Virus record (IMG/VR): IMGVR_UViG_3300025102_000274
Location: 1 to 24,704 of that record
DNA from: a virus
DNA length: 24,704 bases
Direction: 5' to 3' (one strand)
This document shows, piece after piece, positions 1,695-23,640 of the stretch. The translations under genes and the position numbers were made by a program. The notes below the pieces were generated by a model. The model searched no databases, was not told the DNA's origin, and saw only the letters and a program-made list of their open reading frames with translations. Numbering within the stretch: position 1 is the first letter of the stretch; every line of letters begins with the position of its first letter.

Positions 1695-2019
1695 AACACA
1701 AATCAACAAAGAAAGAATACTAAAAGCTTTAGAAAGTAGCTTAGGCGTAATAACTACAGCTTTAAAAGCAACTAATCTAAGTAGAACAAACTTTTATAAG
1801 TGGCTAAAAGAAGATGAAGAATTTAAAGCTAAAGTAGAAGAAATAGAGAATATACAAAAAGATTTTATAAAATCTAAATATTATGAATGTGTTAAAGATA
1901 AAGTACCATCTGTAGTAATACACGCAGCTAAAACAAGACTAGGCTGGAATGAAACTAATAAGCTAGATATTACTTCTGATGAACAAAGAATTAAAATTAA
2001 TATAGATCTAAGTGAATGA
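1675..2019 (+). CDS. terS: terminase small subunit-like HTH protein
   Basis: 114 aa. Residues about 12-46 form a helix-turn-helix of the kind that starts small terminases and other phage DNA-recognition proteins: alternating helices around GVITTALKATNLSRTNFYKWL. A helical region follows with a conserved-looking end (HAAKTRLGWNE) common in Bacteroidetes phage small terminases. It overlaps the start of the large terminase gene by 8 nt, which is the strongest evidence for its role: recognising viral DNA and delivering it to the motor. Length suits the family. The ATG at 1675 lies inside the preceding gene; no better downstream ATG exists before the HTH. Confidence 0.75.
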   Translation: MENEQNRTQINKERILKALESSLGVITTALKATNLSRTNFYKWLKEDEEFKAKVEEIENIQKDFIKSKYYECVKDKVPSVVIHAAKTRLGWNETNKLDITSDEQRIKINIDLSE

Positions 2020-3334: not shown

Positions 3335-3335
3335 A

Positions 3336-3364
3336 CTAAATTAACAATTTTTCTATTATATATT
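3336..3364 (+). repeat. intergenic AT-rich element, copy A
   Basis: A TTAAC box is followed by a T-rich spacer and TCTATTATAT at 3352-3361, three bases before the ATG at 3365. Copies with the same core occur before 12931, 14109 and 16546. It could be a phage promoter with a very short or absent leader, or an initiation signal replacing a Shine-Dalgarno site. Confidence 0.6.
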
Positions 3365-4009
3365 ATGCAAATTGAAGTTAAAAAAGAAGGTAAGGTAAAA
3401 ACTTATAGATTTATAAAAAGCTGGAATGATGTAACGTTAGAAAAGTGGATTAAGCTTATTGATCTTAGAAATAAAACTAAAACTAAAGAAGCTGAAGAAA
3501 CTATAAGAATATTATCTGATATACCTAAAAAATTAATTAAGGAATTAAAGTTAAAAGATATTGCTGCAATTATGCATAAGGTTACTGAAATGCAAGAAGT
3601 TAAAGGTAAGCTAAGAAAGATTATTACCTTAAATAATGTAGAATATGGAATGCATCCAAATTTAGAAGATATGACGTTAGGTGAATGGGCGGATATAGAG
3701 CATTTTATAAAAGAAGGTTTTTATAAATATATGCCTGAAATAATGGCTGTATTATTTAGACCAGTATTAGAAAAAAAGAATAAAGCTTATACTATACCCG
3801 CGTATGATGGTAATATAAATATACGAGCTGAAGAATTTAAGAAGATGAAGGCTATAGATGTACAAAGCTCAATGGTTTTTTTTTATCATTTAGGCAAGAA
3901 ATTATCAAACGTTTTGCCGTTGTATTTGGTGAAGCAAGCGAGCAACCTGAAGAAGAAAATGGAGTTGAGCAAGTCGACTTCGCAAATAAATGGGGTTACT
4001 TCGGCTTAA
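3365..4009 (+). CDS. tail assembly chaperone, short (0-frame) form
   Basis: 214 aa in the 0 frame. The protein is basic and mostly helical with no catalytic motif. It has the shape of Bacteroidetes phage tail assembly chaperones (gpG analogues): WNDVTLEKWIKLI near the N-terminus and TLGEWADIEHFIK in the middle. These proteins hold the tape measure while the tube polymerises. A run of nine T at 3876-3884 allows a -1 shift into a frame that stays open to 4146. After the run the 0 frame uses TTG, CCG, GTG, GCG and CTG codons that are rare elsewhere in the window, so its last 40 residues may be under little selection. It is preceded by repeat copy A and followed by a tail terminator-like gene. 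Confidence 0.72.
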   Translation: MQIEVKKEGKVKTYRFIKSWNDVTLEKWIKLIDLRNKTKTKEAEETIRILSDIPKKLIKELKLKDIAAIMHKVTEMQEVKGKLRKIITLNNVEYGMHPNLEDMTLGEWADIEHFIKEGFYKYMPEIMAVLFRPVLEKKNKAYTIPAYDGNINIRAEEFKKMKAIDVQSSMVFFYHLGKKLSNVLPLYLVKQASNLKKKMELSKSTSQINGVTSA

Positions 4010-4146
4010 TGTATAGATTATGCGGTGGTGAAATAAAAAACTTAGAAGCTATTACTAGGCTAAATATATTAGAAGCTTTTACGTGGTTAAGTTATGAAAC
4101 AGATTTAAAAAGTTTAAAACAAGTAAATATAAATGGCTATAAATAA
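3365..4146 (+). CDS. tail assembly chaperone, long form by -1 frameshift (gpG-T analogue)
   Basis: Predicted 260-aa fusion. Codons 1-173 are read in frame 0 to TTT 3881-3883; after a -1 slip, reading resumes at TTA 3883-3885 and runs to TAA 4144-4146. The added 87 residues contain an acidic linker (EASEQPEEENG), then NKWGYFGLMYRLCGGEI and LNILEAFTWLSYE. That Trp/Gly-rich helical pattern is usual at the C-terminus of phage tail chaperones and is read in no other way here. It overlaps the next gene by 14 nt. A single missing T in the assembly (nine instead of ten) would give the identical protein without frameshifting, so the mechanism is inferred; that the -1 frame is coding is well supported. 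Confidence 0.7.
3877..3883 (+). promoter_or_regulatory. candidate -1 ribosomal slippery site
   Basis: The heptamer T TTT TTT follows GTT in the 0 frame inside a nine-T run, so both tRNA-Phe anticodons re-pair perfectly after a one-base backward slip. The -1 frame is open from 3784 to 4143. I could not identify a firm downstream pseudoknot by eye. A T-run length error is the main alternative. Confidence 0.6.
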
Positions 4147-4627
4147 TAAAACATATAATAATGTAATAGATACGCTTAAAAATTTAGGAGCTAATCATAA
4201 TCAAATAAAAACTACAACTGTAGGTGATATATATGATATAGATTTAGCCAAACGTACTTTATATCCTTTAATGCACTTAGTACCGGTAAATGTTACTACT
4301 ACAAGAAGTGAATTGATATATAATTTTCAAGTATTTGTAATGGATTTAGTCGAGCCTGATAATGCTAATGAGCAAGATGTTTATAGTAGTGTTTTACAAA
4401 CTTGCGTTGATATTATTGGAATAATGAGTAATAGTAAATGGCAAGCTCAATTACAATTAGATATAAATGCTCCAGTATATTTTGCTGAAGGTAATTTTAC
4501 TTTAGAGCCGTTTAAAGAAAGATTTGACCAAGATGTTACTGGCTGGGTTTTTAATTTAGGTATAACTGTAGAAAATAGTTTTCAAACTTGTGATATACCT
4601 ATGGAAGATACTTATATAGGTAAATGA
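4133..4627 (+). CDS. tail terminator / neck-like protein
   Basis: 164 aa, alpha/beta and acidic. The pattern is TVGDIYDIDL, YPLMHLVPVNVT, a YNFQVFVMDLVEPD strand, a central helix, and a C-terminal ERFDQDVTGWVFNLGI strand. It matches a conserved Bacteroidetes phage virion protein with the layout of tail terminators (minor tail proteins of the gpU/neck type) that cap the tube and join it to the head. It starts inside the frameshifted chaperone frame, a standard tail-module neighbour. No enzyme motif is seen. Structural identity is likely; the exact joint it occupies is inference. Confidence 0.6.
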   Translation: MAINNKTYNNVIDTLKNLGANHNQIKTTTVGDIYDIDLAKRTLYPLMHLVPVNVTTTRSELIYNFQVFVMDLVEPDNANEQDVYSSVLQTCVDIIGIMSNSKWQAQLQLDINAPVYFAEGNFTLEPFKERFDQDVTGWVFNLGITVENSFQTCDIPMEDTYIGK

Positions 4628-4640
4628 TAAAATTTAAAAT

Positions 4641-5045
4641 ATGGAAAATAACGATACAACTAATACCACCAAAAATAACTCTAAAGCTATGAGTTATGAA
4701 GATGTATTAGAAAAGCTAGAAGCTATTAGTATTAAATTAGAAACTTATAATGATTATCCTAAAGGCGCTAGTAATAATGCTAAAAGAGCAATAAAATGGA
4801 AAGAAGAAAATGGTACTAGCTGTGGTACTAGGGTAGGCTGGACAAGAGCTGGACAATTAGCTAGAAGGGAAAATATAAGTCGTGAAACTATTGCTAGAAT
4901 GGCAAGTTTTAAAAGACATCAAAAAAATAAAGACGTGCCTTATAGTGAAGGCTGTGGCGGATTAATGTGGGACGCGTGGGGCGGATCTAGCGGTGTAAAC
5001 TGGGCAATAAATAAATTAAAACAAATAGATAAAAACAAAAAATAA
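4641..5045 (+). CDS. virion-associated protein with Cys/Trp 'WDAWGG' domain
   Basis: 134 aa. A 35-residue low-complexity Asn/Thr leader and short helix precede a compact domain at 37-130: YPKGASNNAKRAIKWKEENG, CGTRVGWTRAGQLA, a helix SRETIARMASFKRH, then CGGLMWDAWGG (105-115) and a closing helix. I recognise this domain as one usually attached to phage head proteases, portals or capsid proteins; its function is unknown. Here it stands alone in the tail module. Cys61 and Cys105 are the conserved cysteines. The basic helix could bind DNA, but that is speculation. Confidence 0.6.
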   Translation: MENNDTTNTTKNNSKAMSYEDVLEKLEAISIKLETYNDYPKGASNNAKRAIKWKEENGTSCGTRVGWTRAGQLARRENISRETIARMASFKRHQKNKDVPYSEGCGGLMWDAWGGSSGVNWAINKLKQIDKNKK

Positions 5046-5047
5046 TT

Positions 5048-5497
5048 ATGGCAGATTTAATTACAACAATTACTGAAAGTTTGACTTTAAACGGTGCTGC
5101 GAGAGGCACTACAAATACTTTAACTACTACTGGAATAGTAGATGTATATGAAAGAATATTAACGTGTGCACACTCTAATACAACGACTGTATGTACTTTC
5201 GCTACTACACCACATACTAGTGCTGGTGCTTTAGATGTAGAAAATACTAAGTATGTACGAGTAACTAATTTAAGCACTACTGAAGATATGAAAGTAGCTT
5301 TTATTACTACTAATACTAATTATCAAGTAACCGTTAGAGCTGGTGCTTCACACGTTTTATTTCAAGCAGAAGAAGGTGCAATAGGTGAAACAGACACATC
5401 TCCAGCTTTTGGTACTTTGGAAGATATTACTAGTATTCAAGTAAGACCGTCAGGAAGTGCTGATGTACAAGTAGAAGTCTTTGTAGGGCTTGTATAA
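5048..5497 (+). CDS. small all-beta virion protein, unknown role
   Basis: 149 aa, rich in Thr, Val and Ala, with short hydrophobic strands alternating with Thr-rich turns. The pattern is all-beta and fits a capsid decoration or tail-tube accessory protein. No motif identifies it. It lies 2 nt after the previous gene and its stop overlaps the next start by one base, so it belongs to the same transcript and is probably made at virion-protein levels. It resembles in style, but not clearly in sequence, the 90-aa beta protein at 17730. Confidence 0.5.
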   Translation: MADLITTITESLTLNGAARGTTNTLTTTGIVDVYERILTCAHSNTTTVCTFATTPHTSAGALDVENTKYVRVTNLSTTEDMKVAFITTNTNYQVTVRAGASHVLFQAEEGAIGETDTSPAFGTLEDITSIQVRPSGSADVQVEVFVGLV

Positions 5498-6081
5498 TGG
5501 CTACTAGTAATATAGAAAGATATTTAGAAAGTTATGCTAAGCAAGTAGTAAAAGATGCTAAGAGTAATTTGGCTAATAAAAAAGGTGATACTGATTTAGC
5601 TAAAAGTATAAAGTTTAAAATGATAAAAAGCACACAAGGTATTAAAATACAATTCTTAATGTCTGAATATGGTGATTATGTAGATAAAGGAGTTAAAGGA
5701 AAAGGTGGTGTAATTAAATCAGGTACTACTAAAGGTAATTATGGTGGACGTAGATGGTATACAACTTGGCAAGGTAAAAGAAAAGATAGTCCGTTTCAAT
5801 TTGGTACTGGTACTGGTGCTAAAGGTGGATTAACTAAAGGTTTATTTAAGTGGATAAAAAAGAAAGGAATTAAAGGACGTGATAAAAAAGGTAGATTTAT
5901 ATCTCATAAAAGCTTATCAATAGCTATGGCTAGAAGTATATATATTAGAGGAATACACGGTATTAGTTTTTTTCAAAAATCTTTTGGTAAAAATTATAAA
6001 TTCTTTTCTATTGATTTTTTAAAAAGTTTAAATGATGATATTATAGAAAGTATAACAGTTAATAAAAATATATATGGCTAA
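5497..6081 (+). CDS. HK97 gp10-like head-tail completion protein
   Basis: 194 aa, strongly basic. An N-terminal helix and the block SEYGDYVDKGVKGKGG (about residues 55-70) correspond to the hallmark Y-x-x-Y-V-x-x-G segment of gp10-like neck/tail completion proteins. An unusually Lys/Gly-rich loop follows (about 80-130), then a helix with IAMARSIYIRGIHG and a C-terminal region with paired aromatic residues (FFQKSFG). Proteins of this family sit at the tail-head joint. It overlaps the next gene by 8 nt. Family assignment is moderate, because the basic insert makes it longer than typical members. Confidence 0.6.
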   Translation: MATSNIERYLESYAKQVVKDAKSNLANKKGDTDLAKSIKFKMIKSTQGIKIQFLMSEYGDYVDKGVKGKGGVIKSGTTKGNYGGRRWYTTWQGKRKDSPFQFGTGTGAKGGLTKGLFKWIKKKGIKGRDKKGRFISHKSLSIAMARSIYIRGIHGISFFQKSFGKNYKFFSIDFLKSLNDDIIESITVNKNIYG

Positions 6082-7567
6082 TTTACAACTAGAACAGCAA
6101 CCTAAGTTCGACCCGTTTCCAGCGGCTCAACCTACTATATTTACAGTAAGTGATAGTACTGTAGTAATAAATCAATCACAAGTTAAATTTATAGCTAATG
6201 TATATGTACATAATGATATATCTTCAATAGCTTCTTATAAAGTGGCTACTTTAAAAACTACGCCTAATAATGCTGGAGTAGGTATGTTCGATTTAAGAAG
6301 CGTTATAGAAAGTTTTGTAAATACTGATAATTTAGCTAGTGGTAATACTTCTTCTACTGCACCAGTATGGTCAACTGCACCTACTTATAAAGGAGCTTCT
6401 TATAGTACTGAAAAGCCATTTCCAATACATTTAATAGATAAATACTCTTTTAATGATAAAACTATTAGATGGCTAACAATAAAATTTGAAATAGAATATT
6501 TAAATGGTGGTGGCGACCCGAATAAAGTAGAAACTGATGGTGATACTTTATGGACACCGAACTATTTGTTTTATAATGGTTATTTAGCTCATACTGATTC
6601 TTTACGTGGATCTACTTTATCTAACAATTTTGGCTGGGATTTAGAAAAAGCTGGTACTGATATAGTAGGTAATGAATATAATTTTATACAAAATTCTAGC
6701 ACTTCTTGTTATCTTTCTACTATGCCTACTACATTATATGCTAGATCTGAAGATTATGGCACTCTAGCTACGTTTAATGGTTTAACAAATGCTAGTTTTG
6801 AAACAGGTAATACTAACGACCCAGCTAAAAGATATTTTTTTACTCGTATAATTATGTATAATAGTAGTGGTATACAAATAGCTACTTTTACTATAGATAA
6901 TACTGTAGCGAATGGTGGTAGTGCAAGTAATATAACTGATAATTCTAATGCTAAAATATTATTTAATGGTATATATCCAGCTAATTTAATTAATGGTAGT
7001 ACAACGTTTTCAAGTAACTTTGCTAATACTAGTTATTATACTTTTCAAGGATTTGATAATGCAAGTAGTGCTATTACTAAATTATATACTGTAAATATTA
7101 TATGCGATAATGATTTTGGCTATGAAGGTATTAGATTAGCGTGGCTTAATAAATTTGGTGCTTTTGACTATTATACTTTTAATACTAAATCTGTACGTTC
7201 TGTAAGTACTAAAAAAACTCAATATACTCAGCTAGAAGGTAGCTGGAATAACTTAACATATTTACCGCAAGGATATAAAGGTGGTGTAAAGAATTTTAGA
7301 GTTAATGCTAAAGAAAAAATTAAGCTTAGTACTGATTTTTTAAGTGATTTAGAAAGTGTATGGATAGAAGGCTTATTAAATAGTCCTGAAGTATATATAA
7401 TAAATAAATCTACAGCTAATGATGATGGTGGTATAATTAATAAATACGTTGAGCCAGTAATAGTAACTACTAGTAGCTTTACTCGTAAGACGGTAGCTAA
7501 TGATAAAATTATAAGTTATACTATAGATATAGAAAAAAATAAAGATTTAAGGACGCAAGCCGTATAA
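6074..7567 (+). CDS. tail/baseplate structural protein (Bacteroidetes phage type)
   Basis: 497 aa, beta-rich, no signal peptide. The N-terminal segment VKFIANVYVHND, followed by a GVGMFDLRSVIESFV block near 70-85, is the pattern of a conserved Bacteroidetes phage tail protein usually found just before the tail hub. The middle is Asn/Ser/Thr-rich with sugar-binding style strands. The C-terminus (about 400-497) is a charged beta domain. It starts inside the previous gene and ends 1 nt before the hub gene. A distal tail or baseplate wedge role is inferred from gene order only. Confidence 0.55.
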   Translation: MANLQLEQQPKFDPFPAAQPTIFTVSDSTVVINQSQVKFIANVYVHNDISSIASYKVATLKTTPNNAGVGMFDLRSVIESFVNTDNLASGNTSSTAPVWSTAPTYKGASYSTEKPFPIHLIDKYSFNDKTIRWLTIKFEIEYLNGGGDPNKVETDGDTLWTPNYLFYNGYLAHTDSLRGSTLSNNFGWDLEKAGTDIVGNEYNFIQNSSTSCYLSTMPTTLYARSEDYGTLATFNGLTNASFETGNTNDPAKRYFFTRIIMYNSSGIQIATFTIDNTVANGGSASNITDNSNAKILFNGIYPANLINGSTTFSSNFANTSYYTFQGFDNASSAITKLYTVNIICDNDFGYEGIRLAWLNKFGAFDYYTFNTKSVRSVSTKKTQYTQLEGSWNNLTYLPQGYKGGVKNFRVNAKEKIKLSTDFLSDLESVWIEGLLNSPEVYIINKSTANDDGGIINKYVEPVIVTTSSFTRKTVANDKIISYTIDIEKNKDLRTQAV

Positions 7568-7568
7568 T

Positions 7569-10424
7569 ATGAGTACACAATTAATAGTATATCCACAAGA
7601 TTATGCTGGTTATTCTTATAATTCAGTATCGGTATTTACTGAATATGTAAGCAATCCTGAATTCGTTAATACAATATTAGGTTATGCTGATATTAATGGA
7701 CCGGTTAATACACCTCAAACTACTTATGCTTTAACTGTAGCATCTTCACCAATATTTAATGCTGGTGGCTGGTTTGGATTTTCTAGTTTTACTAGTGGTT
7801 ATTTAAATACTGTAGCTTATCCATTATGGGCGAATGGTCAAATAACTTTAGAATCTTCTGCTACACCTAATGCTAGTCGTAATTCTGTCGCTGGAGTTGC
7901 TCAAATGGTAAATGGCTTAACTGTAGGTAATATATATAGATTAACAATAGACCATACTGGATATACTACTTTGCCGGGTATATTTGTAATAGGTGGTACT
8001 GGAAATGGTAGTGAAGATTTTATAGGCAATCAGGGTACTCCTACACCTTATGCAATGTCGCCTAATAGTAGTGGAATATCTTTTCAAGATTTTATAGCTA
8101 CCGCATCTAGTATGCCGTTAGTAATAGCTTATATAGATAATGTAAATAGAACATTCGTAGTTAATAGTATTTCTTTGCAAGAAGCTCCAACGTCTGCACC
8201 TATTTCTTATGTAGATTTAAATGATGGTCAAGTTATATGTGATTTATACCAAGAACAAGATATACCATTAACTTTAAGTATTGATGATTTTAAAAATGTA
8301 GCAGAAAAGCAACAATCTTATTCTAAAGATTTTGATTTACCAGCTACTAAAAGAAATAATAGAATATTTACGCATATTTTCGAAATAACTAAATCTATAA
8401 ATAGTGCTTTTGACTTTAATCCTTATGCTCGTACTAAGGCTGTTTTAAAAACTGATGGATTAGTAGTATTTGAAGGCTCTTTAAGGCTTATAGAAATAAA
8501 AAATCAAAAAGGTGAAATAAGTTATAATGTTAATTTATATAGTGAAGCTGTAGCTTTAAAACAAATACTAGAAACGAAAACATTTGCTGATATAGATTTA
8601 AGTGAATTAAATCATAATTATAATATAAATAATATACAAAATAGTGTTGAAGGTGAATTAGAATTATTAAATAATTTAGCATCTGATAGCTTCGCTTTAG
8701 AGCCTACTTTAGCAACTAATGAAACTAATGTATTAAAATATCCTTTTTGCGACTGGACGGGTAATATAAATTGTATAAATGATAAGCCTGAATTAAGTTC
8801 TTTAGAAGATGCTTTTAGGCCGTGGATAAGAATTAAATATTTAATACAAAATATATTTAGAAATGCTGGTTATGAATATACGAGTACATTTATAGATAGT
8901 GCTGATTTTAAAAAGCTCTATATGGATTTTAACTGGGGTAAAGATAATGGACCGAATGACTTTACTCATACTGGTAGTGCTAATTATCGTGATGGCGACC
9001 CAGATTACTTTGCTGGTACTACTAGTACTATCGGTAGTGGTACTGTATGGCAATTTTTACACGAGCCTACAGATACTTTTGATAGTGATACGGGCTGGGA
9101 TTTAGCTTCTAGTAAATTTACTTGTCAGCAAGATAATACTTTTTATAGCTTAGAATTTCAATTAATAGGGTTTTGGGTAAATACTTCAGCTAAATGGCAA
9201 GCTAGGGTAATAAGAAAAAATAATAGTGGTGTATTAGGTGCTGTAGGATCTACTACTGTACTAGCAACTTCAGCTTTATTTCCAGCTTCTAGTACTAATG
9301 AATTATGGTATCAACCTTCAATTACTGATGTGCCTTTGCATAAAAATGGAACTGGTAGCGATGAATTATATGTAGAATGGTATAGCGATACAGCTAGTGC
9401 TTGTAAGCAAAGAAATTATGTAGGTGGTCAAGCTTCGTGGGTACGTGGTACTGTATATAATAATGCAGAAATAGTAGAAGCGTCAATGTTACAAGCTAAT
9501 AGAGGTGAACAAAATCAGTGGGAATTTCTAAAAGGTATAATGACTATGTTTAATTTAATAACTATACCCGACCCAAAAAATCCTAATAATATAATTATAG
9601 AAACTTATGATGATATTTTCGGTTTATCTACATCTAGTGGTACTACGTTAGCTTCTAGAAATATAGAATACGACTGGACGGATAAAGTAGATCTAGAAAA
9701 AATGACTATTAAGCCGATGGATTTAAAAAGAATGGTACATTTTAGATATGAAGAAGATGAAGATGATTATCCGTTTAGCGTTTATAAATTAGCTACTGGT
9801 GGTAAATTGTATGGAGAAAAAAAATTAGATACTACTGCTTTAACATTAATGACTGGTCAAATAAGTAATTTAGCTGAAAGTGAAGAAATAATAGCAACAC
9901 CTTTTGCCAGTACTATTATAAAGCCTATTCACGATAATTTTCCGCAGTTTTATATACCAGTTATTTATGGTAGCGAGAATGGCTGGGAATTTGAAGGTAT
10001 AGATAATTTACCAAGAATACTTTATGATAATTATAGAAATATAGGAAGTGTATATGAATATGATGTGCCAGGGCAAAATGGCGTTGCTGGTGGTGTAAAG
10101 GATAAATACTTATTATTTTCTCATACGAGTGATACACCGGCTGCAAATACTGATTACGATTATAATTTTGGCTGGAATAGTATGATAGGTATAACTAATT
10201 CTACGGTACTTAATTTATATAATCTATATCACGCACCTTATTATAATGAATTGTATAATATAGATACTAAAGTTATTACTGCTCAAGTATATTTAACTGC
10301 AGCTGATATTAATACTTTCGATTTCAGAAAACAAGTTATGATAAAAAATAGAGCTTATAGAGTAAATAAAATCGATTATAAGCCTAATAGTTTATCTAAT
10401 GTAGAATTTATATTAATACCGTAA
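7569..10424 (+). CDS. large tail hub / Tal-like protein with extra beta domains
   Basis: 951 aa, the largest gene here. Residues 30-205 look like a jelly-roll carbohydrate-binding domain: an N-terminal NPEFVNT strand, a repeated Trp/Gly pattern, and closing YIDNVNRTFVVNSISL. Residues 215-340 match the conserved N-terminal hub domain of Bacteroidetes phage tail proteins (QEQDIPLTLSIDDFKNVAEK, then YSKDFDLPATKRNNRIF). The body continues with a second beta insert at about 490-625, then a hub region with FLKGIMTMFNLITIPDP and IIIETYDDIF. No lysozyme or protease motif was noticed. It shares one base with the next start (TAATG). It probably forms the tail tip and contacts the host; hub identity is good, carbohydrate binding is inference. 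Confidence 0.65.
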   Translation: MSTQLIVYPQDYAGYSYNSVSVFTEYVSNPEFVNTILGYADINGPVNTPQTTYALTVASSPIFNAGGWFGFSSFTSGYLNTVAYPLWANGQITLESSATPNASRNSVAGVAQMVNGLTVGNIYRLTIDHTGYTTLPGIFVIGGTGNGSEDFIGNQGTPTPYAMSPNSSGISFQDFIATASSMPLVIAYIDNVNRTFVVNSISLQEAPTSAPISYVDLNDGQVICDLYQEQDIPLTLSIDDFKNVAEKQQSYSKDFDLPATKRNNRIFTHIFEITKSINSAFDFNPYARTKAVLKTDGLVVFEGSLRLIEIKNQKGEISYNVNLYSEAVALKQILETKTFADIDLSELNHNYNINNIQNSVEGELELLNNLASDSFALEPTLATNETNVLKYPFCDWTGNINCINDKPELSSLEDAFRPWIRIKYLIQNIFRNAGYEYTSTFIDSADFKKLYMDFNWGKDNGPNDFTHTGSANYRDGDPDYFAGTTSTIGSGTVWQFLHEPTDTFDSDTGWDLASSKFTCQQDNTFYSLEFQLIGFWVNTSAKWQARVIRKNNSGVLGAVGSTTVLATSALFPASSTNELWYQPSITDVPLHKNGTGSDELYVEWYSDTASACKQRNYVGGQASWVRGTVYNNAEIVEASMLQANRGEQNQWEFLKGIMTMFNLITIPDPKNPNNIIIETYDDIFGLSTSSGTTLASRNIEYDWTDKVDLEKMTIKPMDLKRMVHFRYEEDEDDYPFSVYKLATGGKLYGEKKLDTTALTLMTGQISNLAESEEIIATPFASTIIKPIHDNFPQFYIPVIYGSENGWEFEGIDNLPRILYDNYRNIGSVYEYDVPGQNGVAGGVKDKYLLFSHTSDTPAANTDYDYNFGWNSMIGITNSTVLNLYNLYHAPYYNELYNIDTKVITAQVYLTAADINTFDFRKQVMIKNRAYRVNKIDYKPNSLSNVEFILIP

Positions 10425-11314
10425 TGAGTAAATTTGAAGTAAAATATAAAAATGGATTATCTATAAAGCCTGATGCAGTTAGCGAAACTGGTGTTGTTAC
10501 TTTTACTGATGGTACTACTACTGGTTTATTAGCTAGTCAGGTAGTATGTGAAGCTTATGGATATAGATATGATAAAACAAGTGGTACTTGTCAAGCTGGT
10601 ACTTTAATACCTACTGCTAGAAAAAAATTCGCTAATAGGAAAAATAAAGAAACTGGTGTAAATAATACTATAAGAAACTATGCACAAAATAGCTTTATAG
10701 TAGGTGAAAATAATATTAATAATGGTGGTAATGCTAATACGTTTATATTAGGTAATAATCACGAAGTAGAAAATACTTTTAATAATTCATCTATATTAGG
10801 TGGTGAAAGAGCTATAATAAGCCGTGAAGCTGAAGTTAGTATAGGTGGTGGTGTTCAAACTGTAACAGATAGCACTAGTGCTGTGTCTTTTAATAGTAGA
10901 AGGCAAACATCTACTTTAGAATTAAGCTGTGTTACTATAGATAATACCGCAACTAATATGACTATACAAGGTGATGGCTCTAGCTTTATAAATGTAAAAA
11001 ATAATTCTATTATAGGTTTTGATATATATGTTACTAGACTTGAATTAGGTGGTACACGTGGAGTAGCTGGTAATTACTCTTATAGGAATATTAGAGGTGC
11101 TGTAAAAATAGATAATAGTTATAATATGTCTTTCGTTATTGGTTTTGAAAGAAATATAGCAAAAATAGGTGTTAATGGTACGTGTAATATGGTAGATAGT
11201 ACTACTGGTGGAGTACCTTCAATAACAGTACAATGCACAGATAGAAATACAGTAAATAATTTATGGAGTGCTTCGGTAACTTTACACGAAGTAATTTCAG
11301 AAACAACTTTTTAA
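10424..11314 (+). CDS. tail fibre / adhesin with head-type beta repeats
   Basis: 296 aa. An N-terminal domain ends in a Cys pair, CEAYGYRYDKTSGTC (about 42-56), a loop common in fibres of Bacteroidetes phages. Residues 85-145 contain short repeats alternating Asn-rich turns with hydrophobic triplets (NSFIVGENN, NTFILGNNH, NSSILGGER, EVSIGGG), the signature of a left-handed or YadA-like beta roll trimer. The C-terminal 130 residues form a beta sandwich resembling caps seen on such fibres. Placed directly after the hub gene, it is most likely a receptor-binding or tail-tip fibre. Which surface molecule it binds cannot be seen. Confidence 0.65.
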   Translation: MSKFEVKYKNGLSIKPDAVSETGVVTFTDGTTTGLLASQVVCEAYGYRYDKTSGTCQAGTLIPTARKKFANRKNKETGVNNTIRNYAQNSFIVGENNINNGGNANTFILGNNHEVENTFNNSSILGGERAIISREAEVSIGGGVQTVTDSTSAVSFNSRRQTSTLELSCVTIDNTATNMTIQGDGSSFINVKNNSIIGFDIYVTRLELGGTRGVAGNYSYRNIRGAVKIDNSYNMSFVIGFERNIAKIGVNGTCNMVDSTTGGVPSITVQCTDRNTVNNLWSASVTLHEVISETTF

Positions 11315-11317
11315 GAT

Positions 11318-12895
11318 ATGAGTAAAGAAATAATAAAAGCTGAAATAGATAGTAATATAGGTGATTTTGCGAAAGATACTGAAAAAGCTGCAAAAGCAAC
11401 TGGTGATTTAGATAAAGGTGCAAAAAAAGCTAAAAGTGGTATAGATAAATTAAGCTTAGGATTTAAAAGTTTAGTAAAAGCTAGTGGAATTGTATTTTTA
11501 ATTACTGAAGCTTTTAATGTATTTAAGCAAGTATTAAGTGAAAATCAAAAAGTAATGGATATATTTAAAACAGCTACTACAGCTTTATCTATTGCTTTTA
11601 ATGACTTTTTCGGTTTTATAAGTAATAATATAGGTACAGTAGTAAATTATTTTAAAGCACTTTTTGAAGATCCTAAAGCAAGTATGGATAAATTTGTTCA
11701 AGCACTTAAAGATAATCTGATGGAAAGATTAAATAGTGTAATGGACACATTAGGGCATTTAGGTCAAGCATTTAAAAAAGTATTTGAAGGAGATTTTACT
11801 GGTGCATTAGATAGTTTAAAAGAAGCTGGTAAAGAAACAGTAGATATATTTACTGGGGTTGATAATAGTGTAGATAAAGTAACTAAAGTTGTAAAAAAAG
11901 CAATACCAGCAATAACTGAATATGTAGTTAGTACTGTAAAACAAGCTGATGCTATCACACAAACTGAAAAAGCAGCAAATAGAGCTGCAGTAGAATTTGC
12001 AAAATTAAATGCACAATATTTAAAAGAAGCTGAAGAACAAAGGCAAATACGTGATGATGTAAATGCGTCTTTTGAAGATAGAATAAAAGCTAATACCAAG
12101 CTAAATGATATTCTTTTAAAACAACAAGAATTACAAAAAGCACAAATACAAAAACAAATAGATGCGGCTCAAGTCCAATATGATATAAATGCTAGTGAAG
12201 AAAATTATATAGCTTTACAAGAGCAAAAAGTAACTTTATTAGAATTAGAAGAAACTATTACTGGACAATTGTCTGAACAAAAGACTAATCAAGTAGCTTT
12301 AGAAAATGAATTATTAGCAGCACAAAACGAGATTAGAGCCGAAGGAATGAGTGGAATGGAAAGAGAATTAGCTGATTTAGAAAATGCTTATAAAGAAAAA
12401 GTAAAGTTAGCAAATCAAGCTGGTATGGACACTACTGCTATAGATGAAAAATATGCTAAGGATAGAAAGAAAATAGTAATGGCTAATGTAAACGACCAAC
12501 TGGGTGCTTATGGTAATTTAGCTAGTTCGTTAAGTGCTTTAGCTGGTGATAATAAAGAATTAGCAGCTGCGAGTGCAATTATTGATACTTTTGTAGGAGC
12601 AAATAAAGCTTTTGCACAAGGTGGTGTAGCTGGTTTTGTAACTGGTGCTGCGGTAATTGCTTCAGGTTTATCTAATGTACAAAAAATATATTCTACTGAT
12701 GTAGGTAGTGGTAGTGGTGGTGGTGGTGGTGTAAGTGCAGCTACTCCAGCACCGGTTATGTCTAGTGGTGCTTTTACTTTAGAAGGTGGTGCTGATATAG
12801 GTGGTATAGAGCCAGTACAAGCCTTCGTAGTAACAGATGATATGACTAACAGTCAAGATAAACTTGCAACTATTAGACGTAGAGCTACTATCTAA
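11318..12895 (+). CDS. tail tape measure protein
   Basis: 525 aa, mostly helical. It is Lys/Ala/Glu-rich with long heptad-like stretches (about residues 195-345 and 345-395). Two hydrophobic segments stand out: about 50-65 (LVKASGIVFLITEAF) and about 413-455, where AIIDTFVGANKAFAQGGVAG leads into a Gly/Ala-rich membrane-like region. That second block is a frequent ending of Bacteroidetes tape measures. A poly-Gly linker (SGSGGGGG) then leads to a C-terminal tail. Tape measures set tube length and enter the host envelope during DNA ejection. By the usual rule of about 0.15 nm per residue the tail would be near 80 nm; this is an estimate. It lies unusually far downstream of its chaperone, after the hub and fibre. 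Confidence 0.75.
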   Translation: MSKEIIKAEIDSNIGDFAKDTEKAAKATGDLDKGAKKAKSGIDKLSLGFKSLVKASGIVFLITEAFNVFKQVLSENQKVMDIFKTATTALSIAFNDFFGFISNNIGTVVNYFKALFEDPKASMDKFVQALKDNLMERLNSVMDTLGHLGQAFKKVFEGDFTGALDSLKEAGKETVDIFTGVDNSVDKVTKVVKKAIPAITEYVVSTVKQADAITQTEKAANRAAVEFAKLNAQYLKEAEEQRQIRDDVNASFEDRIKANTKLNDILLKQQELQKAQIQKQIDAAQVQYDINASEENYIALQEQKVTLLELEETITGQLSEQKTNQVALENELLAAQNEIRAEGMSGMERELADLENAYKEKVKLANQAGMDTTAIDEKYAKDRKKIVMANVNDQLGAYGNLASSLSALAGDNKELAAASAIIDTFVGANKAFAQGGVAGFVTGAAVIASGLSNVQKIYSTDVGSGSGGGGGVSAATPAPVMSSGAFTLEGGADIGGIEPVQAFVVTDDMTNSQDKLATIRRRATI

Positions 12896-12930
12896 AATCA
12901 AATAAATATTAATTTAATCTATTATATAAT
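12896..12930 (+). repeat. intergenic AT-rich element, copy B
   Basis: AATCAAATAAATAT and an 8-nt AT spacer lead to TCTATTATAT at 12918-12927, three bases before ATG 12931. The upstream box AAATAAATAT and the core are identical to copy C at 14046-14079. Confidence 0.6.
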
Positions 12931-13446
12931 ATGCCGTGTAAAAAATGCAAAGATGGAAAATATAAGTATGGTAATACTGGAGAATGTAAATACGATACAA
13001 AAGAAGAATGTGAAAAAGCTAATCCTAAAAAATATAATAAAATGAAACAAGAGCCAAGTCCGTTAGGTAAAAAAACGTATGCTGAATATGAAAAAGAAGT
13101 AAAAAATTATAAACAGTTAGAAGAATTAAAATTAAGTAAAGTACATAAGGTAAAACTTTCTAGAATAGATGATATTGAAGAAGTAATTTTTAGAGGTTTA
13201 GGTTTATTAGAATTCGTAGAAGAAGATTTAGACCAAGCTTTCGAAAAGTTCATAAGAGCTAAAGACACTGTAAGATTTGATATGAACGATGCTTATACTG
13301 AAGGTGAAAGTATGTTAGAAGAATTTAAAGATGAAATTAAAGAATTAGGTTTAGATATACCAGCTAGTGTTAAAGATCTAGAAAAAGATTTAGCAAGATT
13401 ATCTGATGAAATAGATGAAGCTGAACAAAGAATAAAAGATTTTTAG
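12931..13446 (+). CDS. Cys-rich N-terminus plus coiled-coil protein
   Basis: 171 aa. Four cysteines at 3, 6, 17 and 27 (CKKC, GECKYDTKEEC) within 30 residues look like a small zinc-binding knuckle that I have seen attached to various Bacteroidetes phage virion proteins. The rest is highly charged, with a long helical or coiled-coil region (about 95-171, rich in Glu, Leu and Asp). It lies 1 nt before the XkdF protease gene and shares its transcript, so a head-assembly or scaffold-associated role is plausible. No enzyme motif is seen. It opens a transcription unit preceded by repeat copy B. Confidence 0.55.
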   Translation: MPCKKCKDGKYKYGNTGECKYDTKEECEKANPKKYNKMKQEPSPLGKKTYAEYEKEVKNYKQLEELKLSKVHKVKLSRIDDIEEVIFRGLGLLEFVEEDLDQAFEKFIRAKDTVRFDMNDAYTEGESMLEEFKDEIKELGLDIPASVKDLEKDLARLSDEIDEAEQRIKDF

Positions 13447-13447
13447 A

Positions 13448-14056
13448 ATGAAAAAAAAGCCTACTAGAATAGTCGAATTAATAATAGAAGAAGGTAATAA
13501 AGAATTAGCTATAGATGCAATAAGCTTAGTATCTGCGCCAGCCATCGAACAAGACTTTGTTTTTTTTGGTAAAGAAAAGCACAATTTAACTTTTGCTAAA
13601 GTTGACGAAGAAAAAAGAATGTTAGTGTCGCCCGCTTTAATACCTAATAAGCAAATTTTTAGATATGATCCGCAAACAGATAGTGAATATTATGTTTATT
13701 TTAGTCAAGATACCGTTAGACAAGCGTCTGAATTATACTTAAAACACAATAACCACCATAAAGCTACTTATGAACATCAAGAAAGAGTAAGTGGTGTATT
13801 TACTGTTGAAAGTTGGATAAAGGAAGGCGACCAAGATAAATCTAAATTGTACGGCTACGATTTACCCAACGGTACTTGGTTTGTTAAGATGCGTATCGAT
13901 AACGATGAGCTATGGAATAAGATTAAAGAAGGTGAATTACGCGGATTAAGTATCGAAGGATATTTTGTCGACAAAATGCAAAAGATGTCTGAAAAGCAAC
14001 CTACTAATGAAGAAATACTTAGTGCGTTAAATGAAATAATAAGGAAAATCAAATAA
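13448..14056 (+). CDS. XkdF-type prohead serine protease
   Basis: 202 aa. The N-terminus IVELIIEEGNKELAIDAISL and SAPAIEQDFVFF (29-40), the block MLVSPALIPNKQIFRYD (58-74), TYEHQ with His110, VESW (120-123), GTWFVKMRI (142-150) and GLSIEG (166-171) reproduce the order seen in XkdF-like phage proteases. His104/His110 and Ser168 are the best catalytic candidates, though I cannot confirm the triad. Such proteases trim scaffold and capsid proteins during head maturation. It sits just before a scaffold-like gene and the major capsid gene. Codons at about 13800-13975 are richer in C/G endings than the surrounding genes. Confidence 0.85.
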   Translation: MKKKPTRIVELIIEEGNKELAIDAISLVSAPAIEQDFVFFGKEKHNLTFAKVDEEKRMLVSPALIPNKQIFRYDPQTDSEYYVYFSQDTVRQASELYLKHNNHHKATYEHQERVSGVFTVESWIKEGDQDKSKLYGYDLPNGTWFVKMRIDNDELWNKIKEGELRGLSIEGYFVDKMQKMSEKQPTNEEILSALNEIIRKIK

Positions 14057-14079
14057 ATATAATAATATTCTATTATATA
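14046..14079 (+). repeat. intergenic AT-rich element, copy C
   Basis: The copy overlaps the end of the protease gene and reaches the core TCTATTATAT at 14069-14078. At the spacing where copies A, B and D have ATG, this copy has ATA (14082-14084), and the gene begins only at 14109. That gives a 30-nt stretch between core and start, useful for distinguishing promoter from initiation-signal roles. Confidence 0.55.
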
Positions 14080-14108
14080 GTATAAACTTAAATTTAAGAT
14101 AAAAAATT

Positions 14109-14819
14109 ATGGATTTAAAAAAACAAATAAGAGTAGCGTTAGGTTTAGATACTGAAGAAGATTTACAATTAGCTTTTCAGGCAAAGACCGAAGATGGTAC
14201 TATAATCGTTTCTACGGCCGAGGAACTCGAAAACGGTGTTGACGTATCTGTATTAACAGAAGATGGCACAACGATTAAATTACCGGCCGGTACGTATAAA
14301 TTAGATACTGGTGTAAGCTTTCGTGTAGAAGAAGAAGGTATAGTTGCGGAAGTTATGGAAAGTGAAACAGAAGAAGAAATAGAAGCTGAAGATGATAAAG
14401 AAGAAATGACTGAAGAAAAAGATAGTTATGAAGATGAAGAAGCCGATGTAGCAGACTGGCAAGGTATGGAAAAACGTATCAAAAATTTAGAAGATGCTAT
14501 AGCTGATATTAAAAAGCAAATAGGTGAAAGTGGTGATGTAGAAGAAATGGCTGAAGAAACTCCTGAAGAAAATACAGTACCTTCTAAAAATCCAAGAACA
14601 AAAACTACTAAAACTACAGAAGTAGTAGAATTTAATGCTGAAGAAGAAATAGAAAAATTAAAAGCTGAAAATGAAAAGCTTAAAACTGAATTAAGTAAAA
14701 CTCCAGCTGATGATCCTATTAATACTAATAAATTTAGTAGTGAAAAAACTGAATTGAGTAAAAAAGATTACAATAAACTTTCTAGACAAGAAAAGTTTTT
14801 ATATAACCTTAATAAATAA
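14109..14819 (+). CDS. head scaffolding-like protein
   Basis: 236 aa, very acidic, with long Glu/Asp runs at about 75-115 and a coiled coil at 120-145 and 178-200 (EEEIEKLKAENEKLKTEL). It lacks any enzyme motif. The composition, length and position between an XkdF protease and the major capsid gene are those of phage scaffolds, which direct capsid assembly and are then degraded or released. The first 75 residues are a small beta domain (EDGTTIKLPAGTYKL) with C/G-richer codons than the repetitive remainder, and may bind capsid or protease. A Lys-rich C-terminus (KKDYNKLSRQEKFL) fits a capsid-binding tail. Confidence 0.7.
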   Translation: MDLKKQIRVALGLDTEEDLQLAFQAKTEDGTIIVSTAEELENGVDVSVLTEDGTTIKLPAGTYKLDTGVSFRVEEEGIVAEVMESETEEEIEAEDDKEEMTEEKDSYEDEEADVADWQGMEKRIKNLEDAIADIKKQIGESGDVEEMAEETPEENTVPSKNPRTKTTKTTEVVEFNAEEEIEKLKAENEKLKTELSKTPADDPINTNKFSSEKTELSKKDYNKLSRQEKFLYNLNK

Positions 14820-14846
14820 TAATAAATAATTAAAAAAAATTAAAAA

Positions 14847-15773
14847 ATGGCGGGATTTACAACAACAAGTAATTTTAGTGGTAAAGCAGCTGGATTTTAC
14901 ATCAGCGCTGCACTAAAAGAAGCTAAATCGTTAGACTATTTAACGATGATAGAAAACATAAAATTTAAAAGCAACATACAGAGAATGGCTGGTGCATCAC
15001 TAGTACAAGATGCTGCGTGTGATTTTAATGATTCAGGTGATCTAGATTTAACCGAAAAAGTATTAACGCCTAAGAATTTGATGATTAACATTGATCTTTG
15101 TAAGCAAACTTTATTAGATAGCTGGGAGGCGTTACAAATGAGAGCTGGTGCTGGAGCACCTCCGCCTCCTTCTTTTGAAGATTATGTTATTTCGTACTTA
15201 GGTGAAATTATAGCTGATGGAGTAGAAAATAATATTTGGAGTGGTACTGGTGCAGCTGCGTCGGGTACTTTCTTAGGATTAATGACTGCTACTAGTGGTT
15301 TATTATTACCAGCACAAGATGCAACTGTAGTACAATCTTCTGCAAGTGGTGCATTTGATGTAAACAATATTATTGCTAATCTACAAACTGCTACTACTGA
15401 TTTAGCAACTAATATTTCTACAATATTGAGAAAAGAAGATTTACATATTTATATGTCACCAAAGACTTATAGCTTATATATATCTGCAGTATCTACTTTA
15501 GGATATGTTAATGCGTATAATATGAATGCTGATTACGAGCCAGTATTTGAAGGTTACAAAATTGCCGTATGTCCCGGAATGAGAGAGAACGGTTTAGTAA
15601 TCGCACAAAAATCTAATTTATACTTCGGTACCGACCTTCTAAGCGACCAAACTCGTATCGCTATGATGGATATGGCTAAGCTCGATGGATCGGACAATAT
15701 GCGTGTTGTAGCGAGATATAGTGGTGGTGTACAATCAGGAGTAGGTGCTGATATTTTAAGAATGCAACACTAA
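14847..15773 (+). CDS. major capsid protein
   Basis: 308 aa. It follows the scaffold after a 27-nt AT-rich gap, and its composition is balanced and virion-like. The layout suggests an HK97-type fold: an N-terminal arm with FSGKAAGFYISAALKEAKSL, a long central helix region (EDYVISYLGEIIADGVENNIW, in two parts around residues 112-132), then a beta/alpha A-domain with LHIYMSPKTYSLYI and a C-terminal block (VVARYSGGVQSGVGADIL). I recognise it chiefly by order after protease and scaffold plus this pattern, typical of Bacteroidetes phage capsid proteins. Codons at about 15590-15720 are C/G-richer than elsewhere. A hairpin follows the stop. Confidence 0.8.
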   Translation: MAGFTTTSNFSGKAAGFYISAALKEAKSLDYLTMIENIKFKSNIQRMAGASLVQDAACDFNDSGDLDLTEKVLTPKNLMINIDLCKQTLLDSWEALQMRAGAGAPPPPSFEDYVISYLGEIIADGVENNIWSGTGAAASGTFLGLMTATSGLLLPAQDATVVQSSASGAFDVNNIIANLQTATTDLATNISTILRKEDLHIYMSPKTYSLYISAVSTLGYVNAYNMNADYEPVFEGYKIAVCPGMRENGLVIAQKSNLYFGTDLLSDQTRIAMMDMAKLDGSDNMRVVARYSGGVQSGVGADILRMQH

Positions 15774-15790
15774 TAATAGACTAGAATAAC

Positions 15791-15814
15791 GGAAGTAGTG
15801 TAAAAGCTACTTCC
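15791..15814 (+). terminator. hairpin between capsid and tail tube genes
   Basis: GGAAGTAG (15791-15798) pairs perfectly with CTACTTCC (15807-15814) around an 8-nt loop. The following TTAACTTT is only moderately T-rich, so it may be a weak terminator or processing site that separates expression of capsid and tube genes rather than a full stop. Confidence 0.5.
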
Positions 15815-15834
15815 TTAACTTTAAAATTTAACAA

Positions 15835-16437
15835 ATGGGCTGTACTGCACTAACAAAAGGACGAGGATTAATCTGCGATAGAATCGCTGGTGGTATAAAA
15901 TACGTTTATTTTGGAGTTTATGATGAATTTACAAAAGATGCTACAACTGGTGAAGTATTTGGTACTGGTATCGTTACTAGCACTGGTGCTATAACCGATA
16001 TTAATATGCTATCTGCAAAAGCTTTATATCGTTATACTGTGCCTAGAGGTGAAAGTAGCTTGACCGAAACTATTACGGGTAGTACTGAAAACGGTACTAT
16101 ATTCTATGCACCACAAATTACTTTAAAGCTTAATCAATTATCTACTGCAGACCAAAATCAATTAAGACTATTAGCTTTGTCTAAAGTAGTTGTTTTTGCT
16201 GCGTTAAATCAATTGAATGATGCTGGACACCACGTTATAGTTGGAATGGGTTTAAGAAACGGTATGCGTTTAAATAGTGGTACTAATTTAAGTGGTGCTG
16301 GATTTGGCGACCACAATGGTTACAGTTGGACACTAGATGGCACGGAAGAAACTCCGATGCAAATAGTAGCTGATTATACTACTGATCCGTTCGATAATAC
16401 TGCGTTTGATATACCGGGTGGTATTGTAATTGCATAA
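15835..16437 (+). CDS. tail tube (major tail) protein
   Basis: 200 aa. The start MGCTALTKGRGLICDRIAGG, then IKYVYFGVYDEF, a central RYTVPRGESSLTETI, GSTENGTIFYAPQITLKL, and the closing segment SGAGFGDHNGYSWTLDGTEETPM follow the pattern of Bacteroidetes phage tube proteins. They polymerise as hexamer rings into the tail tube guided by the tape measure. Its place after the major capsid gene, far from the tape measure and chaperone genes, is notable. It is followed by two hairpins ending in a clear Rho-independent terminator, so it ends the capsid-tube transcript. Confidence 0.75.
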   Translation: MGCTALTKGRGLICDRIAGGIKYVYFGVYDEFTKDATTGEVFGTGIVTSTGAITDINMLSAKALYRYTVPRGESSLTETITGSTENGTIFYAPQITLKLNQLSTADQNQLRLLALSKVVVFAALNQLNDAGHHVIVGMGLRNGMRLNSGTNLSGAGFGDHNGYSWTLDGTEETPMQIVADYTTDPFDNTAFDIPGGIVIA

Positions 16438-16443
16438 ATTCTA

Positions 16444-16470
16444 AACACTAAAAGTGTTATTATATATTTT
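16444..16470 (+). terminator. upstream hairpin of a tandem terminator
   Basis: AACACT (16444-16449) pairs with AGTGTT (16453-16458) over a 3-nt AAA loop, and is followed by an AT-rich stretch ending in TTTT. It is weaker than the hairpin 20 nt downstream and probably acts together with it. Confidence 0.4.
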
Positions 16471-16477
16471 CTTAGAT

Positions 16478-16507
16478 AAAGAGGGCATTTAGTCCTCTTT
16501 TTCTTTT
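16478..16507 (+). terminator. Rho-independent terminator
   Basis: AAAGAGGGC (16478-16486) pairs with GTCCTCTTT (16492-16500), including one G-T wobble, around the 5-nt loop ATTTA. It is followed at once by TTCTTTT. It lies after the tail tube stop and just before repeat copy D, so it separates two transcription units. Confidence 0.85.
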
Positions 16508-16511
16508 ACAA

Positions 16512-16545
16512 TACAAATAAATTAACTGTTTTTCTATTATATTAT
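16512..16545 (+). repeat. intergenic AT-rich element, copy D
   Basis: CAAATAAATTAAC, a T-rich spacer and TCTATTATAT at 16533-16542 stand three bases before ATG 16546. Coming directly after a strong terminator, this copy is the best argument that the element is a promoter. Confidence 0.65.
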
Positions 16546-17712
16546 ATGATACACTTAACTTTAAGTAGTCCTGAAGCTGAAAATATAGTTTATATATCTA
16601 CTGAAGATAATAGAATAGATACTGGTGCTTTAGATAGTCAAATACGTTATTTATTTGAAATAACAAATGATATGGGTACTACTTATAGTAAGCCTTATAT
16701 ATCACCTACTGAATATGTACAAGAACAATATACTTATCCTATTAAATATACTATAGCTGATAGATATAATTCTTTTACCTTAACAGCTGTAAACGGTGTA
16801 AGTACTAGTAATATTTTTGCTGGTAAAGTTGGCTCTATACCTTTAGGTTATTATTATTATAAAGTTTATGAATGCACTACTACATCTACTAATACTTTAG
16901 CTTATAATTCTACTACTATGCCTATAGACGCTACTGGAAGAATAGGTAAAGCTACAATTAGGTCAGGTAGTGCTACTGGTACTGTATTAGCTACTACTAT
17001 TTTAACTAATGCTAATAAAGTATCTAATTTAAAAATAAGTGATCTAGCTACTGGTACTTATTATTTAAGATTACAAAGCTCAGCTGGTACTTATATTAAT
17101 AGTGCATTAACAGCTCTAGGAATAACACAAGTACAAGCACAAAGTGATAATAAAAGATGGCTAGAAATAACTGATGTAGCTGAACATTCTACTGGAATGA
17201 CTATTACCATTAAGAGTGAATGTCCGACTGGATATTCTTATGAATTTGATAATGGAAGTGGTGCTTATCAAAGTTTAGTAGAAATAACTAGTAAGCCACA
17301 AACTAATACTATTACGTTAGCTTATGCTACTGATAGCTCCCCGACTTTAAGATTATACGATAGCTCTAATGGACATTCAGGTAGTGGCTCGCAAGTATGG
17401 GGTGCTAGTAATGGACGTGAATTTTTAGTACCTAATCCTACTTTTCCGTATGGCTCTATGACTTATACAGCGTGGAATCCTGAAATGATTAATAGTGGTG
17501 GTACTGTAGTTAGTAAAGGCTCTTTTTATTATGATGTAAGATATGGTAGTACGGCTAATGATAGTACACAAGAATTTTATTTAGTACAAGGTGAAGTAGC
17601 TCAAGGAAAATTATATATAACACAAGGTACTGAAGATATGAAAGAAATTAGATATAAAGAATACGAAGAAACGCAAACACAAGACTACGTTTATAATAGT
17701 AGTTATGATTAA
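16546..17712 (+). CDS. virion protein with an inserted beta domain
   Basis: 388 aa, beta-rich. Residues about 1-125 (IRYLFEITNDMGTTY, YTIADRYNSFTLT, LGYYYYKVYEC) and the last 45 residues or so (QGEVAQGKLYITQGTEDM, then a Tyr/Glu-rich end) together look like a small conserved Bacteroidetes phage protein of about 130 aa, usually found near portal or tail genes. Between them sits about 200 residues of Ser/Thr/Gly-rich sequence. These include ATIRSGSATGTVLATTI, LKISDLATGTYYLRL, and a NPTFPYGSMTYTAW strand. The insert could be a surface adhesin or decoration domain. The split-protein reading is from pattern memory, not alignment. First gene of a new transcript (repeat copy D). Confidence 0.5.
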   Translation: MIHLTLSSPEAENIVYISTEDNRIDTGALDSQIRYLFEITNDMGTTYSKPYISPTEYVQEQYTYPIKYTIADRYNSFTLTAVNGVSTSNIFAGKVGSIPLGYYYYKVYECTTTSTNTLAYNSTTMPIDATGRIGKATIRSGSATGTVLATTILTNANKVSNLKISDLATGTYYLRLQSSAGTYINSALTALGITQVQAQSDNKRWLEITDVAEHSTGMTITIKSECPTGYSYEFDNGSGAYQSLVEITSKPQTNTITLAYATDSSPTLRLYDSSNGHSGSGSQVWGASNGREFLVPNPTFPYGSMTYTAWNPEMINSGGTVVSKGSFYYDVRYGSTANDSTQEFYLVQGEVAQGKLYITQGTEDMKEIRYKEYEETQTQDYVYNSSYD

Positions 17713-23608: not shown

Positions 23609-23640
23609 TTTGTTGATATATATATTTTTTTATATCTTTG
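23609..23640 (+). promoter_or_regulatory. Bacteroidetes-type sigma promoter
   Basis: TTTG at 23609-23612 and TATCTTTG at 23633-23640 match the Bacteroidetes housekeeping consensus (TTTG, 19-21 bp, TAnnTTTG) with a 20-bp spacer. Transcription should start near 23647 and leave about 23 nt before ATG 23670. Confidence 0.8.

Follow-up and report, generated by a model that had tools for sequence, protein, structure and literature searches.

A two-box element at operon heads of an uncultured phage group: probable late promoters of a phage-encoded ECF-like sigma factor

In phage T4, gp55 serves late promoters (TATAAATA) that consist of a -10 element only and depend on the sliding clamp and gp33. Phages phiEco32 and 7-11 encode a sigma factor of their own; promoters for the host sigma drive their early genes, and a few conserved phage promoters head their late operons (PMC4331800). 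In Flavobacteria, the TAnnTTTG box is placed by convention at -12 to -5, and leaderless mRNAs account for only 5.5% in a Flavobacteria host (PMC9723704). Here we analyzed a 24,704-nucleotide stretch of virus DNA (IMG/VR record IMGVR_UViG_3300025102_000274, positions 1 to 24,704; referred to below as the window), in which a two-box element occurs four times. We consider it probable, at roughly 80%, that all four copies act as late promoters for an extracytoplasmic function (ECF)-like sigma factor encoded by the phage. This reading is supported by sequence comparisons, namely by the two-box anatomy of the element, its strand and placement at operon heads, a sigma gene in 19 of 19 near-complete relatives, and a parallel in the cultured phage P12024S.

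The element is composed of a core, TCTATTATAT, and an upstream box, [C/A]AA[A/C]TAAA(T). A scan of the window located the exact core at 3352, 12918, 14069 and 16533, in all four cases on the + strand and between genes, in short gaps 5' of the genes that start at 3365, 12931, 14109 and 16546; the - strand of the window held no exact match. The copies are listed below, with weight-matrix scores from the comparison set described further on.

Positions 3333 to 3365, + strand: copy A (P2), box AAACTAAAT at 3333-3341 and core TCTATTATAT at 3352-3361; the predicted start, A 3365, is the A of the ATG of gene 3365-4009; 34.2 bits.
Positions 12899 to 12931, + strand: copy B (P3), box CAAATAAAT at 12899-12907 and core at 12918-12927; the predicted start, A 12931, is the A of the ATG of gene 12931-13446; 34.5 bits.
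Positions 14050 to 14082, + strand: copy C (P4), box CAAATAAAT at 14050-14058 and core at 14069-14078; predicted start at A 14082, with a predicted leader of about 27 nucleotides (nt) to the ATG at 14109 of a scaffold-like gene, which is followed by the probable capsid gene; 35.4 bits.
Positions 16514 to 16546, + strand: copy D (P5), box CAAATAAAT at 16514-16522 and core at 16533-16542; the predicted start, A 16546, is the A of the ATG of gene 16546-17712; 33.5 bits.

An earlier note on this DNA, made from the sequence alone, had reported four intergenic copies with an invariant core, and these proved to be real. The upstream box that it described is also present in all four copies, but its TAAATTAAC variant is out of register; the true box, (C/A)AA(A/C)TAAAT, begins exactly 19 nt 5' of the core each time. 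As the note had stated, 3 nt separate the core from ATG at genes 3365, 12931 and 16546, and after the core at 14069 the same spot reads ATA. Core position 13 is a conserved A, which in copies A, B and D is the A of the ATG. The exact core alone occurred on average 0.62 times per dinucleotide shuffle, with four or more copies in 1 of 500 shuffles, while the bipartite motif AA[AC]TAAAT-N10-TCTATTATAT was found four times in the window and in none of 500 such shuffles.

The large terminase of the window matches more than 400 loci in IMG/VR. For comparison we used 19 near-complete relatives (records of 27.8-31.6 kb, each taken as two overlapping pieces), together with the window (20 genomes) for the weight matrix. 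In 2 of the 19, the same 127 bp stand at both ends, a pattern expected for circular assemblies, and the cut falls at different places in different contigs; the whole genome therefore measures about 28.5-29.5 kb, of which the window, being a fragment, lacks roughly 4 kb. Most of the 19 relatives have five exact cores. The weight matrix gave 93 sites on the + strand, which is the gene strand, and none on the - strand; nearly all sites stand at five homologous operon heads, before the ParB-like/small terminase genes, after the large terminase gene, before the homologue of gene 12931, before the scaffold-like gene and before the homologue of gene 16546. The one site of the five that has no copy in the window is that before gene 58; the left end of the window is cut 57 bases upstream of that gene.

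Conservation at individual heads is high. The site of copy A, directly 3' of the large terminase gene, is present in 19 of 19 relatives (in two as sequence variants), that of copy D at the equivalent place in 19 of 19 (in two as TCTATATATAT variants), and the boundary of copy B has an exact or variant element in 18 of 19. At the site of copy C, all 19 relatives have a leader, the core standing 13-32 nt from the ATG. Gaps left by the exact search in three genomes (G005, G011 and G015) were mostly filled by TCTATATATAT-like variants at the same places and with the same box. A scan of IMG/VR for AAATAAAT-N10-TCTATTATAT returned at least 120 contigs; homologues of window genes are present in 111 of the 120 listed, and 3 of the 9 others carry the sigma gene. 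Multi-copy intergenic repeats of phages can be operators, and a block similar to this element exists as an isolated fragment in a few host chromosomes, which might suggest a repressor operator or a recombination or packaging repeat. However, neither the box nor the core is palindromic, the element always points in the direction of the genes, and these operon heads showed no other candidate promoter, so that we find such a function barely credible beside that of a promoter for the phage sigma factor.

The internal spacing of the element also bears on its function. Across 90 sites, the consensus reads (C/A)AA(A/C)TAAA(T) at -19 to -11 from the core, a loosely A/T-rich stretch of about ten bases, TCTATTATAT, and A-N-T-A. 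The box stands at exactly 19 nt in 226 of 280 distinct core contexts, a set that excludes loci fetched by the motif itself, while the distance from core to ATG varies, being 3 or 5 nt at most sites and 13-33 nt at the scaffold operon in every relative. The earlier note had entertained, besides a promoter, a substitute initiation signal in a genome without Shine-Dalgarno sites. Such a role in translation would suit the three copies placed 3 nt from ATG, and Bacteroidetes mRNAs do lack Shine-Dalgarno sites (PMC6847099), although Flavobacteria instead tune initiation via A at -3/-6 (PMC6847099) and only 4 of about 31 genes in the window bear the element. Moreover, the two boxes keep their distance from each other and not from ATG. 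Because the box-core distance is fixed while the core-ATG distance ranges from 3 to about 33 nt, the element appears to be a transcription signal and not a ribosome signal; on these grounds of spacing we rejected the translational role as highly improbable and retained the promoter.

Core position 13 is A in 96% of the 46 sites with leaders of at least 9 nt, although these sites are mutually related and do not represent 46 independent observations. Since the A is kept at such sites, it is, as judged from the alignment, part of the promoter and not of the ATG. Placing TAttATAT at -12 to -5 by the Flavobacteria convention sets position 13 at -1, and transcription is therefore predicted to start at this A or one or two bases from it. 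Most late mRNAs would then be leaderless or nearly leaderless, in keeping with the phage-specific promoter that the earlier note had suggested.

That note had also proposed looking elsewhere for a phage sigma factor or RNA polymerase gene. Each of the 19 near-complete relatives encodes, late in its early operon, an ECF-like sigma protein of 178-198 residues. In loci fetched with this protein, the first element lies 1.0-2.7 kb 3' of the sigma gene, and 28 of the 29 sigma loci having 5 kb downstream contain a site within that distance. TIGR02937 (sigma70-ECF) was matched by 57 of 57 members (best 2.4e-12), with alignments that span almost the whole protein; Sigma70_r4 gave weak matches in 40-42 members, and PHROG sigma factor families were matched as well. 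The protein fits the layout of ECF (group 4) factors, which have about 160-200 residues, regions 2 and 4 only, a core-binding motif in region 2.2 and a helix-turn-helix in region 4: it shows a near-invariant VQEL at region 2.2, a matching helix layout and a flexible linker. An AlphaFold2 model (predicted local distance difference test score, pLDDT, 80) shows two helical domains joined by a disordered linker at 89-120, in a sigma2-linker-sigma4 layout. Among the Foldseek matches listed from the PDB, almost all were sigma factors, and VIA gave Z 10.3 against E. coli sigma-E as part of a transcription complex and about 10 against M. tuberculosis SigL. We infer the pairing of sigma and motif from their co-occurrence and from the P12024S parallel. 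A single-subunit phage RNA polymerase was considered and rejected, as no such gene was recognised in the 28-32 kb genomes; the few proteins long enough are homologues of tail- and portal-region proteins of the window, those of tail size being without a Pfam match and assigned by synteny.

The early operon has a promoter of another type, and the contrast that the earlier note drew with a TAnnTTTG promoter at 23633 was correct.

Positions 23610 to 23640, + strand: TTG-N20-TAtcTTTG, a promoter of the host type (Flavobacteria sigma-A) that heads the early operon.

A TTG-N-TAnnTTTG sequence lies no more than 260 nt 3' of the phosphoesterase gene in the window. Among the relatives, this gene was located in 16, and 12 of these have such a sequence within the same distance. 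Matches in a scan for the sigma-70 consensus were no more frequent than in shuffles. By host sigma-A criteria, namely a TAnnTTTG -7 box with a TTG some 19-21 nt 5' of it, the core TAttATAT of the four copies lacks the TTTG -7 box, and no copy has a TTG in register. With a host-type site at the head of the early operon and the element at the late heads, there are therefore two promoter classes, and the early genes, to judge by these motifs, carry the host promoter code and the late genes a phage code.

Alternatively, host sigma-A or a host alternative sigma might read the element with the help of a phage activator, in which case the phage protein would be a RinA/ArpU/Q-like activator or a region-4-only factor. 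Its gene immediately precedes the packaging genes, a common position for late activators, PHROG_36 ('transcriptional regulator') matches 52 of the 57 members and the Q-like PHROG_79 a few, and TAttATAT resembles a -10 box. Against this, the near full-length TIGR02937 alignments and the canonical VQEL of region 2.2 in the two-domain model fit a complete sigma factor, and the element has neither the TTTG of the host -7 box nor a TTG at -33; these genomes do have a host-type box, at another place. We therefore regard an activator as unlikely and favour a phage sigma factor.

A tblastn search of the sigma protein against 50,697 annotated phage records gave no match, and for this reason Nonlabens (Persicivirga) phage P12024S, which is the closest cultured phage when portal and capsid-like proteins are compared, was reached via those two proteins. 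Its gp33, annotated as a Sigma-70 region 2 protein, is encoded shortly 5' of the large terminase (TIGR02983, 5.7e-8; TIGR02937, 5.1e-7). The element AAACAAA-N13-CGTTAATATA-N2-ATG stands at six or seven operon heads of this 35.7-kb genome. All six + strand matches to CGTTA[AC]TA are followed 4-5 bases on by the ATG of an annotated gene, and the three - strand matches are without such an ATG; a seventh variant lies 5' of gp35, and an AAACAAA box stands about 13 nt ahead of most cores. The element recurs in relatives of P12024S (L320-L326), with one copy just 3' of the sigma gene. Of the phages related by terminase, Flavobacterium phage 11b and Cellulophaga phage phi10:1 gave no clear sigma profile match and no weight-matrix hit. 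No taxonomy is attached to the IMG/VR record handles; the type of promoter and the parallel with P12024S point to a flavobacterial host for the window group.

Several observations weigh against the phage sigma factor as the reader of these promoters. Its gene is itself outside the window, the corresponding region having been cut away at the window ends. Most members score below the curated TIGR02937 cut-off of 42.9 bits (L019, 46.8; other members shown, 31-39), and the global TM-scores of the model are low (about 0.3), because the poorly predicted linker leaves the two domains freely placed. The sigma proteins of the window group and of P12024S are weakly similar (hhalign probability 30%, E 5e-4, region 2 only), and the AAAYAAA box common to both groups is therefore not explained by visibly shared recognition residues. 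Inspection of variants found no recognisable copy at the 12931/13448 boundary in one relative (G015). Phages of the phiEco32 type also encode an anti-sigma protein, for which no search was made here; several small early proteins of the window group are candidates.

In the mechanism that we propose, host sigma-A holoenzyme would first read the early operon from the TTG-N-TAnnTTTG promoter (23610 in the window), and this operon would continue past the window end to a protein of about 185 residues with sigma regions 2 and 4. The phage sigma would associate with the core RNA polymerase of the host and guide it to AA[A/C]TAAA-N11-TCTATTATAT at the five operon heads, switching on the packaging, head, tail and lysis genes, presumably late in infection. 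Initiation would occur at, or within one or two bases of, the A at core position 13. Where this is the A of the ATG, the mRNA would be leaderless and be translated as such, and the capsid operon would have a leader of about 27 nt.

The genes and signals around the copies are as follows.

Positions 2012 to 3334, + strand: large terminase gene, ending 5' of copy A.
Positions 13448 to 14056, + strand: head maturation protease-like gene, flanked by copies B and C (PHROG 3017/15223).
Positions 16478 to 16510, + strand: intrinsic-terminator-like hairpin AAAGAGG..CCTCTTT with a T-rich tail, separating the capsid operon from copy D, where the earlier note had seen a strong terminator.
Positions 18934 to 21138, + strand: portal protein gene, in the unit 3' of copy D (PF04860, 7.9e-12; PHROG 33693).

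Another strong hairpin, GGAAGTAG..CTACTTCC at 15791-15814, separates the probable capsid gene from the one that follows; it has no good T tail and may limit read-through. The leader 5' of the scaffold-like gene (14083-14108) contains the palindrome CTTAAATTTAAG. Gene 774-1694 is related to phage beta-glucosyl-HMC-alpha-glucosyltransferase (PHROG 842, 1.9e-24) and is present in only 2 of the 19 relatives; a role in DNA modification is possible.

A scan of genome contigs for the motif yielded mostly chance hits and phage contigs misbinned into metagenome-assembled genomes (MAGs). Contigs of this phage group in MAGs labelled Euryarchaeota and Pseudooceanicola (L329, L333 and L340) are evidently misbinned. 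Small (1.0-1.7 Mb) marine Flavobacteriales MAGs (L328/L358, L336/L359, L337/L360, L341/L355 and L354) have a block of about 47-60 nt at differing chromosomal places, consisting of an AAATAAA-like box, GCATATTTTCTATTATATAATATGCC, ATG and a frame beginning MPFKKGTSG. The block begins a 92-residue small-terminase-like frame in two of these MAGs, three others have only the first 13-34 codons of the frame before it breaks off, and the core lies within an inverted repeat GCATATT/AATATGC. A sigma of the phage family was not found in four of these MAGs. The block might represent an attachment site, the remnant of a phage, or a host gene that responds to a phage sigma. In one relative (G007; L214-L215), two copies of the ParB-like-gene promoter region and a partial second sigma match at the ends are probably an assembly end overlap.

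A search of the open-access literature, which does not prove that none exists, found no account of the motif as a phage promoter, full-text matches to TCTATTATAT being unrelated, and no study of sigma factors or late promoters in Bacteroidetes phages. Phages phiEco32 and 7-11 provide precedents for this kind of mechanism, and a leaderless late programme in marine flavobacterial phages appears to be undescribed. We tentatively advance, at slightly less than even odds, a broader proposal: that in widespread marine flavobacterial phages most late operons are leaderless, with a start codon that incorporates the initiating A of a promoter served by an ECF-like sigma of the phage itself, bypassing both the host promoter code and leader-based translation start, and that promoter-ORF (open reading frame) fusions in streamlined marine Flavobacteriales might wire host or satellite genes to the phage sigma. 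The scheme of a host promoter, a phage sigma and five late promoters is a testable transcription programme for a very common, uncultured group of ocean phages that has a cultured relative. If true, it would provide a new sigma/promoter pair working with Bacteroidetes RNA polymerase. Should most of the late mRNAs prove leaderless, this would be a case of leaderless translation on a large scale, in a phylum in which hosts employ it for only about 5% of their genes.

Among known systems, P12024S/L (NC_018271, NC_018272) resemble the window group in having related portal and capsid-like proteins, an ECF-like sigma gene before the terminase and an element at operon heads. They differ in the core (CGTTAATATA, against TCTATTATAT here), in a box-core distance that is about 2-3 nt longer, and in sigma proteins that are distantly similar. 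Like T4 gp55, the protein described here would be a divergent small phage sigma reading AT-rich late promoters, but here the upstream box is conserved. Flavobacteria sigma-A promoters (TTG ... TAnnTTTG; PMC9723704) likewise consist of two boxes, the downstream one lying at about -12 to -5, but they have TTTG and TTG, and the phage element has neither; the 5.5% of leaderless mRNAs in the host (PMC9723704) would contrast with most phage late operons here, if our reading is right. The window group shares with phiEco32 and 7-11 a sigma factor of its own and few, well-conserved, co-oriented copies at late operon heads (93 on the + strand and none on the - strand here). However, these are unrelated phages with unrelated hosts, and the phiEco32 consensus is a single box of about 9 bp, tAATGTAtA (PMC4331800), whereas the element described here has two boxes at a fixed distance, another sequence and, as predicted, usually no 5' leader.

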